NCBI GenBank assembly: GCA_034003725.1
Contig: JAVEYB010000003.1
Coordinates: 175,486 to 239,485 of the forward strand
DNA: 64,000 nucleotides
Direction of reading: 5' to 3'
Source: Candidatus Zixiibacteriota bacterium
GTDB taxonomy: Bacteria; Zixibacteria; MSB-5A5; GN15; FEB-12
Below, piece after piece: positions 52,732 through 60,989 of this stretch. Under the pieces are notes generated by a model that saw only the letters and a program-made list of their open reading frames with translations, searched no databases and had not been told where the DNA came from. Position numbers and translations under genes: made by a program. Within the stretch, counting starts at the first letter, position 1; every line of letters begins with the position of its first letter.

Positions 52732-54588
52732 ATGACGCGCGGGACCACGCGATTTACCGACGGCTTTTTCCGGGCGCCCGGGGTAGACCGTACAGGCGCC
52801 GGACCGATCGCCAGCGAGTACGTCCCCATCTGGGACGTGGTCGACAATGAGAATCTCAAGAAACTGCCCAGACATCTCAAACAGTTTGTCGTCGATCAGC
52901 AATACGAAAAGTACACACCGGTCGACCACGCCGTCTGGCGGTACGTCATGCGCCAGAATTTCGCCTTCCTGAAAGATCACGCTCACGAGTCGTACACGGA
53001 GGGGCTGAAGAAGACCGGAATCGGAATCGAGAAGATTCCAAGCGTCTACGAGATGAATGACATCCTGTCACGAATCGGCTGGGCCTGCGTGACGGTCGAC
53101 GGTTTCATTCCTCCGGCCGCCTTCATGGAGTATCAGGCCTACCGTGTGCTCGTAATCGCCGCCGACATGCGCCAGATCAATCATATCGAATACACCCCGG
53201 CTCCGGATATCATCCACGAGGCGGCCGGACACGCCCCCATTATCGCGGATCCGGAATACGCGGAATACCTCCGGCGGATCGGTGAAGTAGGCGCCAAAGC
53301 GATGTCTTCGAGAAAAGACTTCGAGTTGTACGAGGCCATCCGCCACCTGTCCATCCTCAAAGAACTGCCGAATCCCGATCCGGAAGAAGTGAAGGCGGCG
53401 GAGAATGCCGTGGAGTACGGCCAGGCGAATCTCGGCACGCCGTCGGAGATGGCGCTGCTGAGTCGCCTGCACTGGTGGACTGTGGAATACGGCCTGATCG
53501 GTACCCTTGACAATCCCAAGATATACGGCGCCGGTTTGCTCTCATCGATCGGGGAATCCGCCAATTGCGTAACGCCGAAGGTAAAAAAGCTCCCGTACAA
53601 TCTCCAGACTGCGGACTTTGCCTTTGATATCACGACCCAGCAGCCGCAGCTGTTCGTTACGCCCGATTTCCGGCACCTGATCGACGTACTCGAGGAATTC
53701 GCCGACGGGATGGCATTTCGTACGGGCGGCGTTTCGGGGCTGACGAAGGCAATCGAGTGCAACAACGTTTCGACCGCCGTGTATTCTTCGGGCCTGCAGG
53801 TTTCCGGCGTTTTCACCGGCGTGACGGTTGACGAGCACAATCGCCCCGTGTACATCAAGACGACCGGCGCCACCGCCCTCGCGGTCGAATACAAACAACT
53901 CGAGGGACACGGCAAAGTCTATCACGCCGACGGATTCGGCTCGCCGGTAGGCAAGCTTAAAGGCGTGGACCAGCCGATTGAACGCATGTCCGACGGCGAC
54001 CTGCGGTCGCACGGGCTGGTTCCGGGCCGGCGGAGCAACTTCACGTTCGAGAGCGGAATCACCGTTGACGGATTGCTGGAGCGGGTTGAACGCAGAAACG
54101 ACAAGGTCGTCCTGCTCGTCTTTTCGGACTGCTCCGTCAATAACGGTTTGACCGTATTGTTCGATCCGACGTGGGGCGCCTACGATATGGCGGTCGGCGC
54201 CGAGATCGTTTCCGTCTTCTGCAGCGCCGCCGACAAGGACGCCTACGAGCAACCGTCGCTGGTGCCGAAAGAACGCACCGTCAAACTCGACTACGACGAC
54301 AAGACCCGCGCCCTGCAGAACATATACGCCATTATTCGCGCCTATCGCACCGAGAACAAAACAGATGATTCCATCGTTGCGTTGTATGAGTCGCTGAGAG
54401 CAGAACACCCGAACGATTGGCTGGCGTCGTTGGAGATTCTCGAGATTCTCGTTTCGAGAGGAATTTTCGCCGACACTGCGGACCGGATTCGGGATGAGTT
54501 GAATCGCACGGCGACTGCGCAGGAACACCTGCGGAAACTGATCACCGACGGGCTGTATCTCGTCGATAACCCGTTCAAGAAGGTGTAA
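52732..54588 (+). CDS. phhA: Aromatic amino acid hydroxylase (probable phenylalanine 4-hydroxylase), long form
   Basis: The 618-residue protein contains the non-haem iron site HEAAGH (His162, His167) and Glu252 (TVEYGLIG), the pattern of tetrahydrobiopterin-dependent aromatic hydroxylases. It oxidises phenylalanine to tyrosine using O2 and tetrahydrobiopterin. Bacterial phenylalanine hydroxylases are usually about 260-300 residues. This one has an added C-terminal region of about 280 residues of unknown role, containing RKNDKVVLLVFSDCS-like segments, and no N-terminal ACT domain. It is followed by the carbinolamine dehydratase gene, 15 bp away. Confidence 0.93.
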   Translation: MTRGTTRFTDGFFRAPGVDRTGAGPIASEYVPIWDVVDNENLKKLPRHLKQFVVDQQYEKYTPVDHAVWRYVMRQNFAFLKDHAHESYTEGLKKTGIGIEKIPSVYEMNDILSRIGWACVTVDGFIPPAAFMEYQAYRVLVIAADMRQINHIEYTPAPDIIHEAAGHAPIIADPEYAEYLRRIGEVGAKAMSSRKDFELYEAIRHLSILKELPNPDPEEVKAAENAVEYGQANLGTPSEMALLSRLHWWTVEYGLIGTLDNPKIYGAGLLSSIGESANCVTPKVKKLPYNLQTADFAFDITTQQPQLFVTPDFRHLIDVLEEFADGMAFRTGGVSGLTKAIECNNVSTAVYSSGLQVSGVFTGVTVDEHNRPVYIKTTGATALAVEYKQLEGHGKVYHADGFGSPVGKLKGVDQPIERMSDGDLRSHGLVPGRRSNFTFESGITVDGLLERVERRNDKVVLLVFSDCSVNNGLTVLFDPTWGAYDMAVGAEIVSVFCSAADKDAYEQPSLVPKERTVKLDYDDKTRALQNIYAIIRAYRTENKTDDSIVALYESLRAEHPNDWLASLEILEILVSRGIFADTADRIRDELNRTATAQEHLRKLITDGLYLVDNPFKKV

Positions 54589-54603: not shown

Positions 54604-54933
54604 ATGCAGAATCTCAGCCGGAAACGGTGTGTGCCCTGCGAGGGCGGAATTGACCCGCTGACCCGAGACCAGTTTGAAGTTTATCTCGAGCAGTTGCCGG
54701 ACTGGACGGTGCTCGACGACAAGTCTCTTGAGCGGGAGTTCCGTTTCAAGGATTTCGTCGAGGCTATGGCGTGGGTCAATAAGGTAGCAGAAATCGCCGA
54801 GGACGAGGGACACCACCCGGACATCTACATCCACGGGTGGAACAAGGTCCGGATCACGCTCTGGACGCACGCGATCGGCGGTCTGTCGATCAACGACTTC
54901 GTCGTCGCCAGCAAAATCGACCGCATCAGGTAA
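54604..54933 (+). CDS. phhB: Pterin-4a-carbinolamine dehydratase
   Basis: The 109-residue protein has the family signature EDEGHHPDIYIHGWNKVRIT with the catalytic His residues. It dehydrates 4a-hydroxytetrahydrobiopterin, the by-product of phenylalanine hydroxylation, to start cofactor recycling. It is 15 bp downstream of phhA, so they form a pair. A dihydropteridine reductase is not visible in the window. Confidence 0.96.
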   Translation: MQNLSRKRCVPCEGGIDPLTRDQFEVYLEQLPDWTVLDDKSLEREFRFKDFVEAMAWVNKVAEIAEDEGHHPDIYIHGWNKVRITLWTHAIGGLSINDFVVASKIDRIR

Positions 54934-55001: not shown

Positions 55002-55694
55002 TTACAACGTCCCGGCTATATTGCCCACACGGATAGAGTCTATGAGAACGTCGGACGGCCGCGAGAGCGCAAATGCGACCGCCTCGGCCACTTCATCCGG
55101 ATTCAGCATCTTTTCGCGCGGGAAATCCCCGGAGACGCTGTTCCACAGGGCGGTATTGGTTGCGGACGGCGTGACGGTGATGACGCGGATACCGCGCGGG
55201 CGAAGTTCCTCGCGCAGCGCGCGAGAGAATCCATCCAGCGCAAACTTGCTCGCGCAGTAACTGCTCCAGTTCGCAAATCCCGATTCCGCGGCGATCGAGA
55301 GAATATTGACAATCGTCCCGCCTGAAGTCATAAAGGGAACGAGATTCTTTACGAGCAAAAACGGCACCGTGACGTTGATATCCAGCGTGCGACGCCATTC
55401 GTCTTCGGTCAGCTCTTCCACCGGCTTGACAAACGCCACGCCGGCATTGTTGACGAGTACGTCGAGGGGACCGGCGCCAGCCGCGTCGACAATCGATTGG
55501 ATCCCGGCCTCACCGTGCAGGTCGGCGAAGATTGGAACGCCGGTTGCCCGTTTCGACTCGACCAGCGCCGCGGTCTTCCGCAGGGCGTCCTTGTTGCGGC
55601 CGTGTACATAGACCGTCCTGCCCTCCCCGGCCAGCCGGACCGCGATTGCTCTCCCGATGCCCTGACTCGCGCCCGTAATCAGAATACGTTTCAA
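55002..55694 (-). CDS. Short-chain dehydrogenase, sepiapterin reductase-like
   Basis: The 230-residue SDR has ITGASQGIGRAIAVRL (NADPH site), NNAGVAF and the catalytic YCASK. A TTG start at 55694 is supported by GGAG upstream and overlaps the PTPS stop (TTGA). Following folE and the PTPS fusion in one operon, it would reduce 6-pyruvoyl-tetrahydropterin to tetrahydrobiopterin, the sepiapterin reductase step. That assignment is by context; SDRs are poorly predicted by sequence. Confidence 0.82.
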   Translation of the reverse strand: MKRILITGASQGIGRAIAVRLAGEGRTVYVHGRNKDALRKTAALVESKRATGVPIFADLHGEAGIQSIVDAAGAGPLDVLVNNAGVAFVKPVEELTEDEWRRTLDINVTVPFLLVKNLVPFMTSGGTIVNILSIAAESGFANWSSYCASKFALDGFSRALREELRPRGIRVITVTPSATNTALWNSVSGDFPREKMLNPDEVAEAVAFALSRPSDVLIDSIRVGNIAGTL

Positions 55695-56914
55695 CGAGAA
55701 TCTCCCTGTCTTCGTACGGTGAATCGATTGTTCGGAGTCTCCCACAGCCGTGTCCGCCACAGACGATCGTCGAGGGCCTTCTGCAGACGCGGCCACAGTG
55801 TTGTTACCATGTTTTCGGCGGTGCTGGGTCGGTCCCGGAAGTCATCAGTGTCGAGATCGAGATGGCGGAATCGCCACGGCTCGAGGACAGAGTCCACGGA
55901 CTTATAGGCGCGATCGAGGTCGAACAGCGTCCCGCTCCGCTCATCGAGCGTACCACCGACAGTTGCTTCGAGTCGGTACAAGTGCCCATGCCCGGCTGCG
56001 TTATTGCACTTGTCATACACCTCGACGTTTTCAAGCTCAGTCAACCGGGAGCTGTGCAACCGATGAGCCGCATGGAAACTGCTCTCGATTCCCAGGAAAG
56101 TGATACCGCCACGATGAAATTCCGCGAAGAATCGGGGATTTTCGTGCAGTCGCACGCGATTGACCGGCAGCGAGGCGCCAAGTCGTTCGAAGGCGTACCG
56201 CGCGAGTGTCTCGGTGGTCACCGGCAGGCTTTTTAGTCCCGAGACTTCATCATTCAGGTAGTGATGGTCCAGTTCTTCATAGAGCGACGACAGCGCCCGC
56301 TCCGACTCCGACGGAGGAACAATCATGCCGTAACTGCCGTCCACCGGACCATCCAGCGTAACACGCACGCGATAGCCGTGACCATGTATGTTGACGGCCT
56401 TTCCAAACAGCTCCCGGTTCTGCTGATCCGTCAGGTGTGGTGACACGGTTCTCCGGGCGGCGGAGAAATCAATCGTGAAGTGCCGTTCGATCCGTCCGCC
56501 CGCGTACGCGGTTGCCGCCGAAGTGTCGGTCTCCTCCAGATGACACACCACCGGCTGCGCCGACTCACCCGAAAAGGCGGAGCGGATATCTTCGAACAGA
56601 CAGGCAACGAGATTCTCCGGCGTGGGGGGAATGGAATCGAACGGCGACGTATCGACATTGAGAAACTTGTGGTCGTAGCGGGCTGAGAGGATATCGTTTA
56701 CACGTTTTTTGATTGTCGTTACGTTGATGATCATGCCGTCCCGCGCATCGACAGCGCCGTGGAAAACGGTGTACAGCGTGAAGTTGTTGCCGTACCCGTG
56801 CGGGCCGCCGATCCTGCGGCCGAAAAACTGTCGGTTTTTCTGCGGGTCCCAGTCGGGGACGTAGTATCGATGCGATGACGAGAATTCGAACCGCTTGCTC
56901 AAGGTCAGATACAT
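55691..56914 (-). CDS. Triple 6-pyruvoyltetrahydropterin synthase fusion
   Basis: The 407-residue chain holds three tandem PTPS-like domains (about 1-130, 142-265, 271-405). Single PTPS proteins are about 120-150 residues. Zinc and active-site residues are unequal. Domain 1 has His15, His39 (PHGYG, second His replaced by Tyr41), Asp81-His82 and Glu127/128. Domain 2 lacks the first His (FSAARRT) but has HGHG (His177, His179), DHH (216-218) and Glu258. Domain 3 has His284, the only catalytic-type Cys303 (KCNN), HGH (309-311) and Glu392. Domain 3 therefore has a complete zinc site and the Cys. The enzyme makes 6-pyruvoyl-tetrahydropterin from dihydroneopterin triphosphate. It is coupled to the SDR by overlap and is 17 bp after folE. 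Confidence 0.9.
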   Translation of the reverse strand: MYLTLSKRFEFSSSHRYYVPDWDPQKNRQFFGRRIGGPHGYGNNFTLYTVFHGAVDARDGMIINVTTIKKRVNDILSARYDHKFLNVDTSPFDSIPPTPENLVACLFEDIRSAFSGESAQPVVCHLEETDTSAATAYAGGRIERHFTIDFSAARRTVSPHLTDQQNRELFGKAVNIHGHGYRVRVTLDGPVDGSYGMIVPPSESERALSSLYEELDHHYLNDEVSGLKSLPVTTETLARYAFERLGASLPVNRVRLHENPRFFAEFHRGGITFLGIESSFHAAHRLHSSRLTELENVEVYDKCNNAAGHGHLYRLEATVGGTLDERSGTLFDLDRAYKSVDSVLEPWRFRHLDLDTDDFRDRPSTAENMVTTLWPRLQKALDDRLWRTRLWETPNNRFTVRRQGDSR

Positions 56915-56931: not shown

Positions 56932-57501
56932 CTACATCCCGCGACGCCCGCTGATTCCGCGTATCAGGCTGAAAAACTCAGCCCGGGTTGCCTGATCGTC
57001 GTGGATTTCACCGAGCACACAAGATGTCGTCATTACGGAGTTCTGCTTTTGCACGCCGCGCATCATCATGCACAGATGCTGCGCCTCGATGACCACCCCG
57101 ACTCCCTTCGCATTCGTGTACCGCTGAATCGTGTCGGCAATCTGCCGGGTCAGATTCTCCTGGATCTGCAGGCGGCGGGCAAAGACGTCTACTATGCGGG
57201 CCAGTTTCGACAGGCCGATAACTTTGCCGTTGGGCAAGTACGCCACGTGCGCTTTGCCGAAAAACGGCAGCAGGTGATGCTCACACATCGAGTACAACTC
57301 GATATCCTTGACCACCACCATCTCACTGGTATCCGACTCAAACACGGCGCTGTTAACAATCTGTTCGACATCCGCCGAGTATCCCTGTGTGAGAAACTCC
57401 AGCGCCTTGGCGGCCCGTTTCGGTGTGTCCCGAAGACCCTCGCGATTCAGGTCCTCCCCGATTCCGCTGAGCAACTGCCGGTAGGCTTCCTGTAACGACA
57501 T
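56932..57501 (-). CDS. folE: GTP cyclohydrolase I
   Basis: The 189-residue enzyme converts GTP to dihydroneopterin triphosphate. The zinc ligands are Cys73 and His76 ([10 protein letters not shown]) and Cys144 (HLCMMMRG), with the usual [20 protein letters not shown] core. It leads the minus-strand pterin operon (folE, PTPS fusion, SDR), which is convergent with phhA-phhB. A GAGGA ribosome-binding site is present. It could also feed folate synthesis, but the neighbours favour biopterin. Confidence 0.98.
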
Positions 57502-57687: not shown

Positions 57688-60600
57688 CTATCTCAAAAGA
57701 AGCATCTTCCGGCTGACATCGGTTCCGTCAGTCCTGAGTCGATAGAGATAAACGCCGGACGCGGCCCGATTGCCGCTCTCGGTTGTGCCGTCCCAGACGA
57801 CCGTGTGTATCCCGGCCGGCCGGTAGTTGTCGACCAACGTTTTGACCCGCTGTCCAAGCACGTTGTAGATAGCAAGTCGCACGTGACCCGCCGATACAAC
57901 ACTGAACCTGAGGGTTGTGGTGGGATTGAACGGATTGGGGTAGTTCTGATGCAGTTCGACCGACGAAGGAAGCGGCGGTTCGTCCGGGTCTTCGCTCCCG
58001 GTGGGGACGCCAAGCATGAACCAGTCGACAAGGGATCGCACGCCGTCCGTATCCAGGTACCAGAGGTGTTCCGCGATTGCCATGGCGCGGCCCTGCCCGT
58101 GTTCCTTCAGAACCGCGCACGGATGACCATGCACCCGGGAAGTGGCCGGATACCGGCTTTCGAACGCAAAGACGACCGCTGAGGAATCGGAAACCCCGAA
58201 TGCCGACGCCATAGCCGCCGATGTGGTCGGCCAGTAACCTTCCATACCCCCAAGAAGGGGATAAGGGAGAGAGTCATACAGCAAGAATGGCAGAGACGCG
58301 TTTTGGGGGACCGCCCGCACGAATCCGAGCATGCTGTCGATCAACGGCGGATCGGTGTTAGTGGCGTACCAGCGCAGGCCGGTCTGGAAAACCGAGTCAA
58401 CTCCAAACAACCGCTCCATCGCGCTGTCCACGGACCGATATGCCGGTGCTGCGCCAAACCAGTCGGCGCCCGTCTTGCCGAAAAACGAACCGCAGTATAT
58501 TACGCTCCCGCCCGCGTCGAGAAGGTCATGGATTGCGGTCGGCGGAAGCATGTTCAGGGCGTAGTCTCGAAGGCCGTCATCGATAATCACGCAGCGGTAG
58601 CGCAGAAGCTCACGCCACCAGAGGGAGTCGGTAATCTGATTCTCGGGCAGTGAGAGATTGCGGATCTCATACGAATACCGGGAGAGGACGTCGTCATAGA
58701 AAGAGGTGACAGTCTCCAGAGCCACTCCCTGCCCGTAGGGCGATGAGTACGTGAGCACGCCGATATCGGCGGTCACCGCGGGTCGCTCAACCGCGCGTGC
58801 GGGCCGCGAAAACCACGATTCAAAACCGTTCCGATCGGTGCCCGCCACGACATACAGGCAGCCGTGTATCGGCGAATCATCCGCAAATGAGAACGTGTTG
58901 CCGTCAACCTCTGCATAACTGTCACGCTGATAGTAGTAGTAGGTGATTCCGTCGACCACCACCGTATCACGGGCGGTACGGAAAGCCAGAGACTCGCCGG
59001 TGTCATAATAAGAGTGGAAGCACGTTGTGTCCGGATCGCCCGGCTCAAAGCGATAGACCGAAAAATGATCAAACATCGACGGCTCGTCGTGCGACCACGT
59101 GAGTACGGCCGGATCACCCGGTAAGTACAGTACTCTCGACCGATCGAATTCCGGGGCGGTCGCGCGAGCCCCGGCTCGTGCCGGGACAGGTTCCGTTCGT
59201 TCGCCTTCGCCAAGGGCAGTGATGTGACTCACAGAAAGATAGTAGAGGGTGTCAGGGCTGAAAGTCGTGATCGTGTACTGCCGCTCGGGACCAATTTCAT
59301 CGACGAGCATCAGTGATTCGGGTTTTACCCAGGGAGCAATCGCTCCCGGATGAGGGAAATCGGTGAACGGCACACCGCCGGCAAAAACGCGATACCCGGT
59401 TACCTCGGGCAGACCCCAGGGATCCCAGCTAAGTACAACGGAGTCGATCGATTCATGCGCCACGGCGAATCCCACCGGGGGCTGCATCGGATCGATCAGT
59501 GCCTCGGCCAGAAGCCGGGCGTTTGCCGATGTGGCCATCGCGTCCGACATGTTCAGGCTCATGCGGTACAGGTCCGGGTAGTCAGGCAGGAATTGAAGGA
59601 TAGTAGGATCACGGTGTACCCATCGCCCCACAAACATAGTGTACAACAGCCGGATGCTTGAGTCTGCGGGAAGGTCGAACGGGCCGGTCGACATCAGGAA
59701 CCGAATATCGCCTCCGTCGTAGAGGTCAAGCGCTGCGGCGGCCGGCGGCGCCATCCAGATGTCGTCGTCCGTACCTATTTCGGTGATGTACCACTGGTCG
59801 TAATCCCACTCGGGGAAACGTAACATATGGTATTTGTTCTGGTCGCCGTACGGTTCTCCTGTGCCTCCCGTACCGTAGTCATGGTAGACAGTGTCCCGTC
59901 GACGAGGTCCGAAGTCATCCGCTCCCCCAAGTGTATATACCCGCCACCAGTTGAAGCTTGTGTCTCGGGCAGTGAATGAACTGCCGAGAAATTGAAAGGC
60001 GAATAACCGGGTTGGACTTCGCCCCGTGAAATCCCCCGACTGCGGATCGCCGTCATTGTCGACGACATATGCCATACCGCTCGATCGGAGCGATCCGATC
60101 ATATCATCTTCGAACCCGTATGTGGACTCGTACATTATGTCCGCGTCGAGGAAGATGCCAACATAACCGTCGGTAATGTCGTTGCGGCTGATATTCGTGA
60201 TTACCATGTCGTACACGACAGCCTTGTTGTGACCGGCATCGTACCGAACGTGGGAGCGGTTTGCGATCCTCAATCCGAGCGGGATGTGGTTCCGGCCGCT
60301 GGCATCGGGCACGACTCCGGTTGTTGCCGTGTCATAAAACTCCGCCCGCAGTCCGAAGTCCGCCGGGGTCGGTATCGTTGTCACCGACCGAAAAGAGGCT
60401 GTCGGCGGAGACATTTCGTTGGAAAGTGGAAAAGTGTTGTCCCTGCTCGCCGACACCAGCGTATCGCCGCCGCTGATACCACCGATCCAGATGCCGCCCG
60501 CGAACAGGTAGATGAGGTCGCTTCCCTCCGGTGATTCGAATGCCATGCAGCTGTTCCCGGCGCTGCAATTGCCCGGACAATCTGACCGAGCCGACATAAA

Positions 60601-60822
60601 CGTCCCAAAACAATCAAACGTCGTGCTGATTTCGGATGTGGTCTGGTTTCCCGAACAGACCGGCCACTGGATGCCCGTGGAATCGCTTGTAAGGCTTGCA
60701 GATAGCGTGTCTTTGCTACGATCGCTGTCATCTCCGATTCCGCGCGCACGTGATATCACCCGAAGATGGCCGATTACCATCAGCGCGCACAATAGAACTG
60801 CCGCCCACCACCGAACCCTCAT
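57688..60822 (-). CDS. Very large exported protein with Por-type (T9SS) C-terminal sorting domain
   Basis: The 1044-residue protein has a signal peptide (MRVRWWAAVLLCALMVIGHL; ATG 60822 with GAGGG upstream). A long N-terminal region with Cys and Gly motifs (FDCFGTFMSARSDCPGNCS) follows, then an Fn3-like segment (about 520-620) and a further beta-rich part. The C-terminal 85 residues have ELHQNYPNPFNPTTTLRF and end in KMLLLR, the type A sorting signal of type IX secretion. Residue ranges for internal domains are approximate. It would be secreted or surface-attached. Its function is unknown; no catalytic motif is obvious. Confidence 0.88.
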   Translation of the reverse strand: MRVRWWAAVLLCALMVIGHLRVISRARGIGDDSDRSKDTLSASLTSDSTGIQWPVCSGNQTTSEISTTFDCFGTFMSARSDCPGNCSAGNSCMAFESPEGSDLIYLFAGGIWIGGISGGDTLVSASRDNTFPLSNEMSPPTASFRSVTTIPTPADFGLRAEFYDTATTGVVPDASGRNHIPLGLRIANRSHVRYDAGHNKAVVYDMVITNISRNDITDGYVGIFLDADIMYESTYGFEDDMIGSLRSSGMAYVVDNDGDPQSGDFTGRSPTRLFAFQFLGSSFTARDTSFNWWRVYTLGGADDFGPRRRDTVYHDYGTGGTGEPYGDQNKYHMLRFPEWDYDQWYITEIGTDDDIWMAPPAAAALDLYDGGDIRFLMSTGPFDLPADSSIRLLYTMFVGRWVHRDPTILQFLPDYPDLYRMSLNMSDAMATSANARLLAEALIDPMQPPVGFAVAHESIDSVVLSWDPWGLPEVTGYRVFAGGVPFTDFPHPGAIAPWVKPESLMLVDEIGPERQYTITTFSPDTLYYLSVSHITALGEGERTEPVPARAGARATAPEFDRSRVLYLPGDPAVLTWSHDEPSMFDHFSVYRFEPGDPDTTCFHSYYDTGESLAFRTARDTVVVDGITYYYYQRDSYAEVDGNTFSFADDSPIHGCLYVVAGTDRNGFESWFSRPARAVERPAVTADIGVLTYSSPYGQGVALETVTSFYDDVLSRYSYEIRNLSLPENQITDSLWWRELLRYRCVIIDDGLRDYALNMLPPTAIHDLLDAGGSVIYCGSFFGKTGADWFGAAPAYRSVDSAMERLFGVDSVFQTGLRWYATNTDPPLIDSMLGFVRAVPQNASLPFLLYDSLPYPLLGGMEGYWPTTSAAMASAFGVSDSSAVVFAFESRYPATSRVHGHPCAVLKEHGQGRAMAIAEHLWYLDTDGVRSLVDWFMLGVPTGSEDPDEPPLPSSVELHQNYPNPFNPTTTLRFSVVSAGHVRLAIYNVLGQRVKTLVDNYRPAGIHTVVWDGTTESGNRAASGVYLYRLRTDGTDVSRKMLLLR

Positions 60823-60989
60823 CGGCACGCCCTCGTAACTCCCTGTTTCCAGCCGGCCCGCTACGCTCTCGGAGATGAACTGGCGATTGGTTGTCGACCG
60901 ACTCCGGCCACACAAAATGGACGAAACTGAAGACCGTCCGTTCAATGTCCAAAGAATCGTTCCCGTGTCACGGGTTACGACAAAATCGC

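Follow-up and report, generated by a model that had tools for sequence, protein, structure and literature searches.

Introduction

In rat 6-pyruvoyltetrahydropterin synthase (PTPS), the catalytic Cys is contributed by one subunit and Asp88 and His89 by its neighbour. The enzyme is a dimer of trimers with active sites located between adjacent monomers (PMC7546909), and the title of Burgisser et al. 1995, a work cited in PMC7546909 and PMC2229834, names the catalytic triad as intersubunit. When any one of the three His residues is lost, metal binding and activity are both abolished (PMC10767420). CxxxxxHGH is the motif of PTPS-II, and CxxxHGH and ExxHGH mark other classes of the family (PMC5041015). 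Biopterin is considered rare among bacteria (PMC13259868).

Here we describe, in a window of 64,000 nucleotides, a gene whose product carries three unequal PTPS domains in one chain. No publication on three-domain, two-domain, tandem or fused PTPS was found in a search limited mainly to open-access literature. Two T-folds per chain are already known (urate oxidase). The gene is a natural experiment: in it, an obligate homo-oligomer has been fused into one chain, which left its three interfacial sites free to diverge.

Results

Domain organisation and distribution of the three-domain PTPS

PF01242 was matched three times along the 407-aa ORF in a profile search (4e-66), and the ORF also passed the cut-off of TIGR00039. 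The fusion of three PTPS domains, first proposed in a sequence-only reading of the window, was thus borne out, and the further three-domain cases that the reading had suggested looking for were found both among relatives and in Verrucomicrobia. Full-length orthologues (identity 42–66%) are present in 18 of 60 related genomes, and complete chromosomes with an orthologue include CP070674 and CP070756. In a phylum sample of 132 genomes, the full-length form was limited to one family-level group. When 84,980 species were scanned, the best 80 loci placed the three-domain PTPS only in Zixibacteriota and Verrucomicrobia, save a few unnamed MAGs. The verrucomicrobial carriers are Chthoniobacterales wherever the order is named, and 12/384 genomes of that class have the gene. 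Single-domain PTPS were seen in other families of the phylum (L023–L026, L137); in those of L023–L026 the motif is Cx5HGH and the Asp-His is intact.

A sequencing or assembly artefact was ruled out. Orthologues occur in many genomes, including complete chromosomes, and in two phyla, which excludes a sequencing error. The three domains of the window protein have diverged to a pairwise identity of only ~26–31% over roughly 100 residues, and are therefore no recent or assembly-made repeat.

Table 1. Features of the locus, with coordinates in the window.
Feature	Coordinates	Strand	Basis or remark
phhA, aromatic amino acid hydroxylase, long type	52732..54588	+	NF010657 2.8e-238; PDB 7vgm 9.6e-164
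Pterin-4a-carbinolamine dehydratase (PCD, phhB-like)	54604..54933	+	PF01329
SDR, candidate sepiapterin reductase	55002..55694	-	PF00106; TTG start overlaps PTPS stop (TTGA)
Three-domain PTPS, 407 aa	55691..56914	-	3 x PF01242; 53 distinct three-domain homologues
Domain 3 (aa 271-407): complete Zn site, Cys, Glu; Asp-His lost	55694..56104	-	
R348-F349, where rat PTPS has Asp88-His89	55868..55873	-	rat alignment
C303, catalytic Cys of CxxxxxHGH (PTPS-II) motif	56006..56008	-	aligned to rat PTPS Cys42; PMC5041015
Domain 2 (aa 141-270): A153/A173 replace Zn His/Cys; HGH, Asp-His, TTE, Glu kept	56105..56494	-	
D216-H217 of domain 2, proposed catalytic Asp-His of working site	56264..56269	-	53/53
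Domain 1 (aa 1-140): Zn half decayed, no Cys, Asp-His kept	56495..56914	-	alignment; AF2 elements E2-15 to E132-137
D81-H82 of domain 1 (rat D88-H89)	56669..56674	-	53/53
folE, GTP cyclohydrolase I, upstream, 17-nt gap	56932..57501	-	PF01227, NCBIfam FolE

Active-site residues of the three domains

Residues were counted in the 53 distinct three-domain homologues, which come from one Zixibacteriota family-level group and from Verrucomicrobia, and were numbered after rat PTPS by phmmer alignment. In domain 1, the Asp88-His89 equivalents are kept in all the 53 proteins. The sequence-only reading had one domain without a zinc His of the HGH motif. The loss was confirmed in domain 1, but it is larger than had been claimed, both His being replaced in the window protein (Y41 and N43). 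All three Zn His of this domain are kept by 13/53 homologues, which makes their loss lineage-specific in this alignment. Among Zixibacteriota the three positions read HHH, HYN, YFS, YYG, AHY, RHA, RTL and others, a range of variation as expected under relaxed selection. Cys was absent from the aligned catalytic place of domain 1 throughout the 53-homologue alignment. The Glu133 equivalent, position 128, is Glu in 42/53.

At domain 2, the place of His23 is occupied by Ala in 52/53 homologues, in agreement with the earlier statement that another domain lacks the first Zn His. The place of Cys42 is Ala, Ser or Thr across the homologues. Eight other site residues of this domain, H177, H179, D216, H217, T233, T234, E235 and E258 (His48, His50, Asp88, His89, Thr105, Thr106, Glu107 and Glu133 in rat numbering), are each found in 53/53.

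Domain 3 had been singled out as the one with a complete zinc site and the Cys, and it is indeed the only domain of the window protein with three Zn His. H284, C303, H309, H311, E367 and E392 (His23, Cys42, His48, His50, Glu107 and Glu133 of the rat enzyme) are each conserved in 53/53. The sequence-only reading overlooked that its Asp-His is lost (R348-F349 in the window protein). In the homologues, His89 is kept by one and Asp88 by seven; 10 residue types are seen at position 88 and 7 at position 89. The residue at 349 is Y or F in most Zixibacteriota and D or N in Verrucomicrobia. H351, two residues past the lost His89, is present in 53/53. The PDB sequences nearest to domain 3 are animal PTPS (worm, 1.7e-23; rat, 8.2e-23). 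Because the catalytic Asp-His is missing, domain 3 probably cannot act as an active domain on its own.

As the PTPS triad is intersubunit, the losses in the three domains are complementary: the Asp-His is retained in domains 1 and 2 (53/53) and the Zn, Cys and Glu residues in domain 3 (53/53), where the His89 position is kept in 1/53.

Two-domain relatives and the domain tree

Two-domain PTPS of ~270 aa were found in Chloroflexota, Poribacteria, Bacillota, Armatimonadota, Acidobacteriota and one Gemmatimonadota genome. In 43 such proteins the Asp-His is present in both domains of 6, in the C domain only of 17 and in the N domain only of 20, and none lacks it in both (nominal Fisher 2.4e-7, shared ancestry uncorrected). 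The C-domain Cys is kept in 43/43. In Poribacteria, Chloroflexus and Acidobacteria, complementation is in the direction seen in the three-domain protein. In Acidobacteria both His89 and His91 are absent from the C domain, and the N domains of the same proteins keep Asp-His. In Armatimonadota and Gemmatimonadota, Cys and Asp-His are gone from the N domain and the C domain is complete; from these complete domains, C-only sites appear possible in two-domain PTPS.

These results bear on an alternative explanation, in which domain 3 is the sole catalytic domain, acting alone or with copies, H351 replaces His89, and domains 1 and 2 are a scaffold. The invariant Zn site, Cys and Glu of domain 3 and the invariant H351 would fit such an enzyme, and the complete C domains of Armatimonadota and Gemmatimonadota indicate that C-only sites seem to exist. 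We nevertheless regard this explanation as unlikely. A pure scaffold leaves unexplained the Asp-His of domains 1 and 2 and the eight site residues of domain 2, all strictly conserved. The many residue types in domain 3 show that its Asp-His is free to vary, and in Acidobacteria it is the C domain that lacks His89 and His91 and the N domain that keeps Asp-His.

Across the two-domain loci (L065–L113, e.g. L084, L097, L066), losses of Cys and Asp-His are lineage-specific and complementary or one-sided, mostly in genes beside folE and an SDR gene. From whole two-domain chains, a ring of three T-folds is impossible without mixing chains. In a Bacillus (L097:8530-12503), folE-PTPS-SDR is situated between genes for an EAL-domain protein and a histidine-kinase-like ATPase, a possible signalling link. 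Searched by similarity to the window PhhA, the loci fetched had no phhA near two-domain PTPS.

A quick tree of the domains was built from 134 columns and 121 rows. Domains 1, 2 and 3 each form one clade (97, 99 and 98, respectively). Domain 1 is placed with the N domains of two-domain PTPS (91), and domain 3 with Chloroflexi C domains and animal PTPS (94). Domain 2 stands apart, with limited branch support for deep placement. The Zixibacteriota set and the Verrucomicrobia set of three-domain proteins lie on opposite sides of a branch. From this placement, the three-domain PTPS looks like a two-domain ancestor to which a middle domain was added, fused once.

Predicted structure of the whole chain

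The whole three-domain chain was modelled by AlphaFold2 with a pLDDT of 94.7 and a pTM of 0.91. Such a pTM points to one well-defined domain arrangement, as expected if the chain replaces a homotrimer. In the model, every domain follows the order beta-beta-alpha-alpha-beta-beta, beta1 being followed by an additional helix, and beta4 is separated from beta1 of the next domain by just 3–4 residues. The best PDB matches of the model in Foldseek are animal PTPS (TMt 0.90–0.92, rmsd 1.1–1.3), and the fold matches the human and rat enzymes. Among the 50 PDB matches listed there is no chain with three T-folds. The longest matches listed are urate oxidase and GTP cyclohydrolase IB, weak alignments of ~300–370 columns with an rmsd of 8–17 A; these enzymes are the precedents for two T-folds per chain.

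The earlier proposal that a fused trimer of unequal domains replaces the subunit ring stands in part. The fusion is real in two phyla and the model has one domain arrangement. For lack of Asp-His, however, domain 3 is probably not active by itself, and a composite site shared between domains, with a further pocket conserved but altered and another decayed, is the better reading.

Genomic context and the predicted pathway

folE, the PTPS gene and the SDR gene form an operon on which the phhA and pterin-4a-carbinolamine dehydratase genes converge. Nearly every PTPS homologue is adjoined by folE and an SDR gene, and phhA is nearby in most three-domain loci. In 61 related genomes, the three-domain PTPS and phhA occur together in 15, the former alone in 4, the latter alone in 3 and neither in 39 (Fisher 3.5e-8, kinship uncorrected). 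The four genomes with the three-domain gene and no detected phhA (G004, G027, G029 and G031; loci L019, L007, L006 and L009) may have another user of the cofactor or be incomplete. A large ORF adjoining folE (57688-60945, minus strand) has a C-terminus (ELHQNYPNPFNPTTTLRFSV...) resembling a type IX secretion sorting domain.

Because the folE-PTPS-SDR operon faces phhA and the dehydratase gene, the three-domain PTPS is best read as a BH4-type (PTPS-II) enzyme serving phenylalanine hydroxylase, and tetrahydrobiopterin is probably the cofactor made. FolE would act first, PTPS would convert dihydroneopterin triphosphate to 6-pyruvoyl-tetrahydropterin and the SDR would follow, with PhhA as user of the cofactor and PCD as its recycler. 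By its sequence the SDR is not specifically sepiapterin-reductase-like, the sepiapterin reductase of C. tepidum (2bd0) being one among many PDB matches.

Another reaction of the COG0720 family, that of QueD (queuosine) or of PTPS-III (folate), was also considered. The protein passes the TIGR03367 QueD cut-off as a whole-protein sum (118 bits). This assignment is very improbable, and a queuosine or folate role was rejected on three grounds: the own genome lacks a genuine queC (best match 4e-4, whereas true carriers give full-length matches at 1e-64 to 1e-79), it has FolB (5.1e-32), and the motif of domain 3 is Cx5HGH rather than Cx3HGH or ExxHGH. In addition, a second match, single-domain and QueD-like, is present in six of the genomes with the three-domain PTPS. 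The own genome carries no PTPS gene besides the three-domain one.

Discussion

We favour, with moderate confidence, a PTPS-II of a BH4-type pathway with a composite active site shared between domains. Where an ordinary PTPS trimer has three identical subunits, this enzyme would have the three T-fold domains of one chain, and two chains would form the usual two-ring assembly. As the sites lie between subunits, each domain can lose one half-site. Domain 3 has Zn and Cys residues but no Asp-His and would therefore need a neighbour; domains 1 and 2 keep the missing half. The most likely partner, judged by residue conservation, is domain 2. The Zn half of domain n would meet the Asp-His of domain n-1. 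By this rule there would be one working site per chain, composed of the Zn ligands H284, H309 and H311 with C303 and E392 of domain 3, and D216-H217 of domain 2. A second pocket would be made of H177, H179, E235 and E258 of domain 2 and D81-H82 of domain 1. Having no Cys and only two Zn His, it should not carry out the PTPS reaction; it may bind pterin. In the third pocket, domain 1 would supply its Zn half and domain 3 the position of its lost Asp-His, and this pocket would be dead.

Conservation favours the n/n-1 rule in that it would bring together the Zn side of domain 1 and the Asp-His side of domain 3, both of which have decayed. That these two halves, in the domains at opposite ends of the chain, have decayed together suggests ring closure. 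A fused order that follows the ring order fits the short beta4-beta1 spacing of the model, as expected. We thus infer a closed ring with neighbour pairing of this handedness. With the opposite handedness, domain 1 would provide the Asp-His for domain 3, and the conserved Zn half of domain 2 would lie against the position where domain 3 has lost its own. Either of domains 1 and 2 could partner domain 3, both having kept Asp-His in 53/53. However, the opposite arrangement would join a pocket half that is strictly conserved, that of domain 2, to an Asp-His that has been lost, and would leave the conserved Asp-His of domain 2 facing the decayed Zn half of domain 1. The complementary losses in two-domain PTPS also combine the Zn half of the C domain with the Asp-His of the N domain, as in the n-1 rule, subject to ring size there. 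Opposite handedness is, on these grounds, distinctly improbable.

Under the n/n-1 pairing, the pocket between domains 2 and 1 might be a dedicated second pterin site, either a sensor of product or end-product or the seat of a Zn-free partial reaction; this we put forward only tentatively, as a possibility on the doubtful side. If true, regulation or a division of labour would be built into this PTPS. Because its domains can be mutated singly within the same polypeptide, unlike those of a homohexamer, the fusion also makes the intersubunit nature of the triad testable. In Zixibacteriota and Verrucomicrobia, mostly uncultured, the locus suggests that phenylalanine hydroxylase is supplied by a BH4-type pathway.

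Comparison with known systems

PTPS-II (rat 1b66, human 3i2b, C. elegans 2g64) shares with the three-domain protein the domain fold and the folE and SDR context, and with domain 3 the Zn-His3 and Cys-x5-HGH motif. PTPS-II is a hexamer of identical single-domain subunits, whereas here three unequal domains make up each chain, the Asp-His is gone from the domain bearing Zn and Cys, and two of the three sites are not canonical. QueD/PTPS-I (E. coli 4ntk) has the same T-fold (TMt 0.86) and type of Zn site. It differs in being a single domain with Cx3HGH in a queC/queE/queF context; the three-domain PTPS has Cx5HGH and a genome without a real QueC. PTPS-III, the FolB replacement, has ExxHGH and occurs where folB is absent; here domain 3 has the Cys motif and FolB is present. 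The two-domain PTPS has the same folE-PTPS-SDR neighbourhood, and its N and C domains group with domains 1 and 3, respectively. It has no middle domain, and a ring built from it would need another size or a mixture of chains. Urate oxidase and GTP cyclohydrolase IB differ in chemistry and carry two T-folds per chain; the three-domain PTPS carries three.
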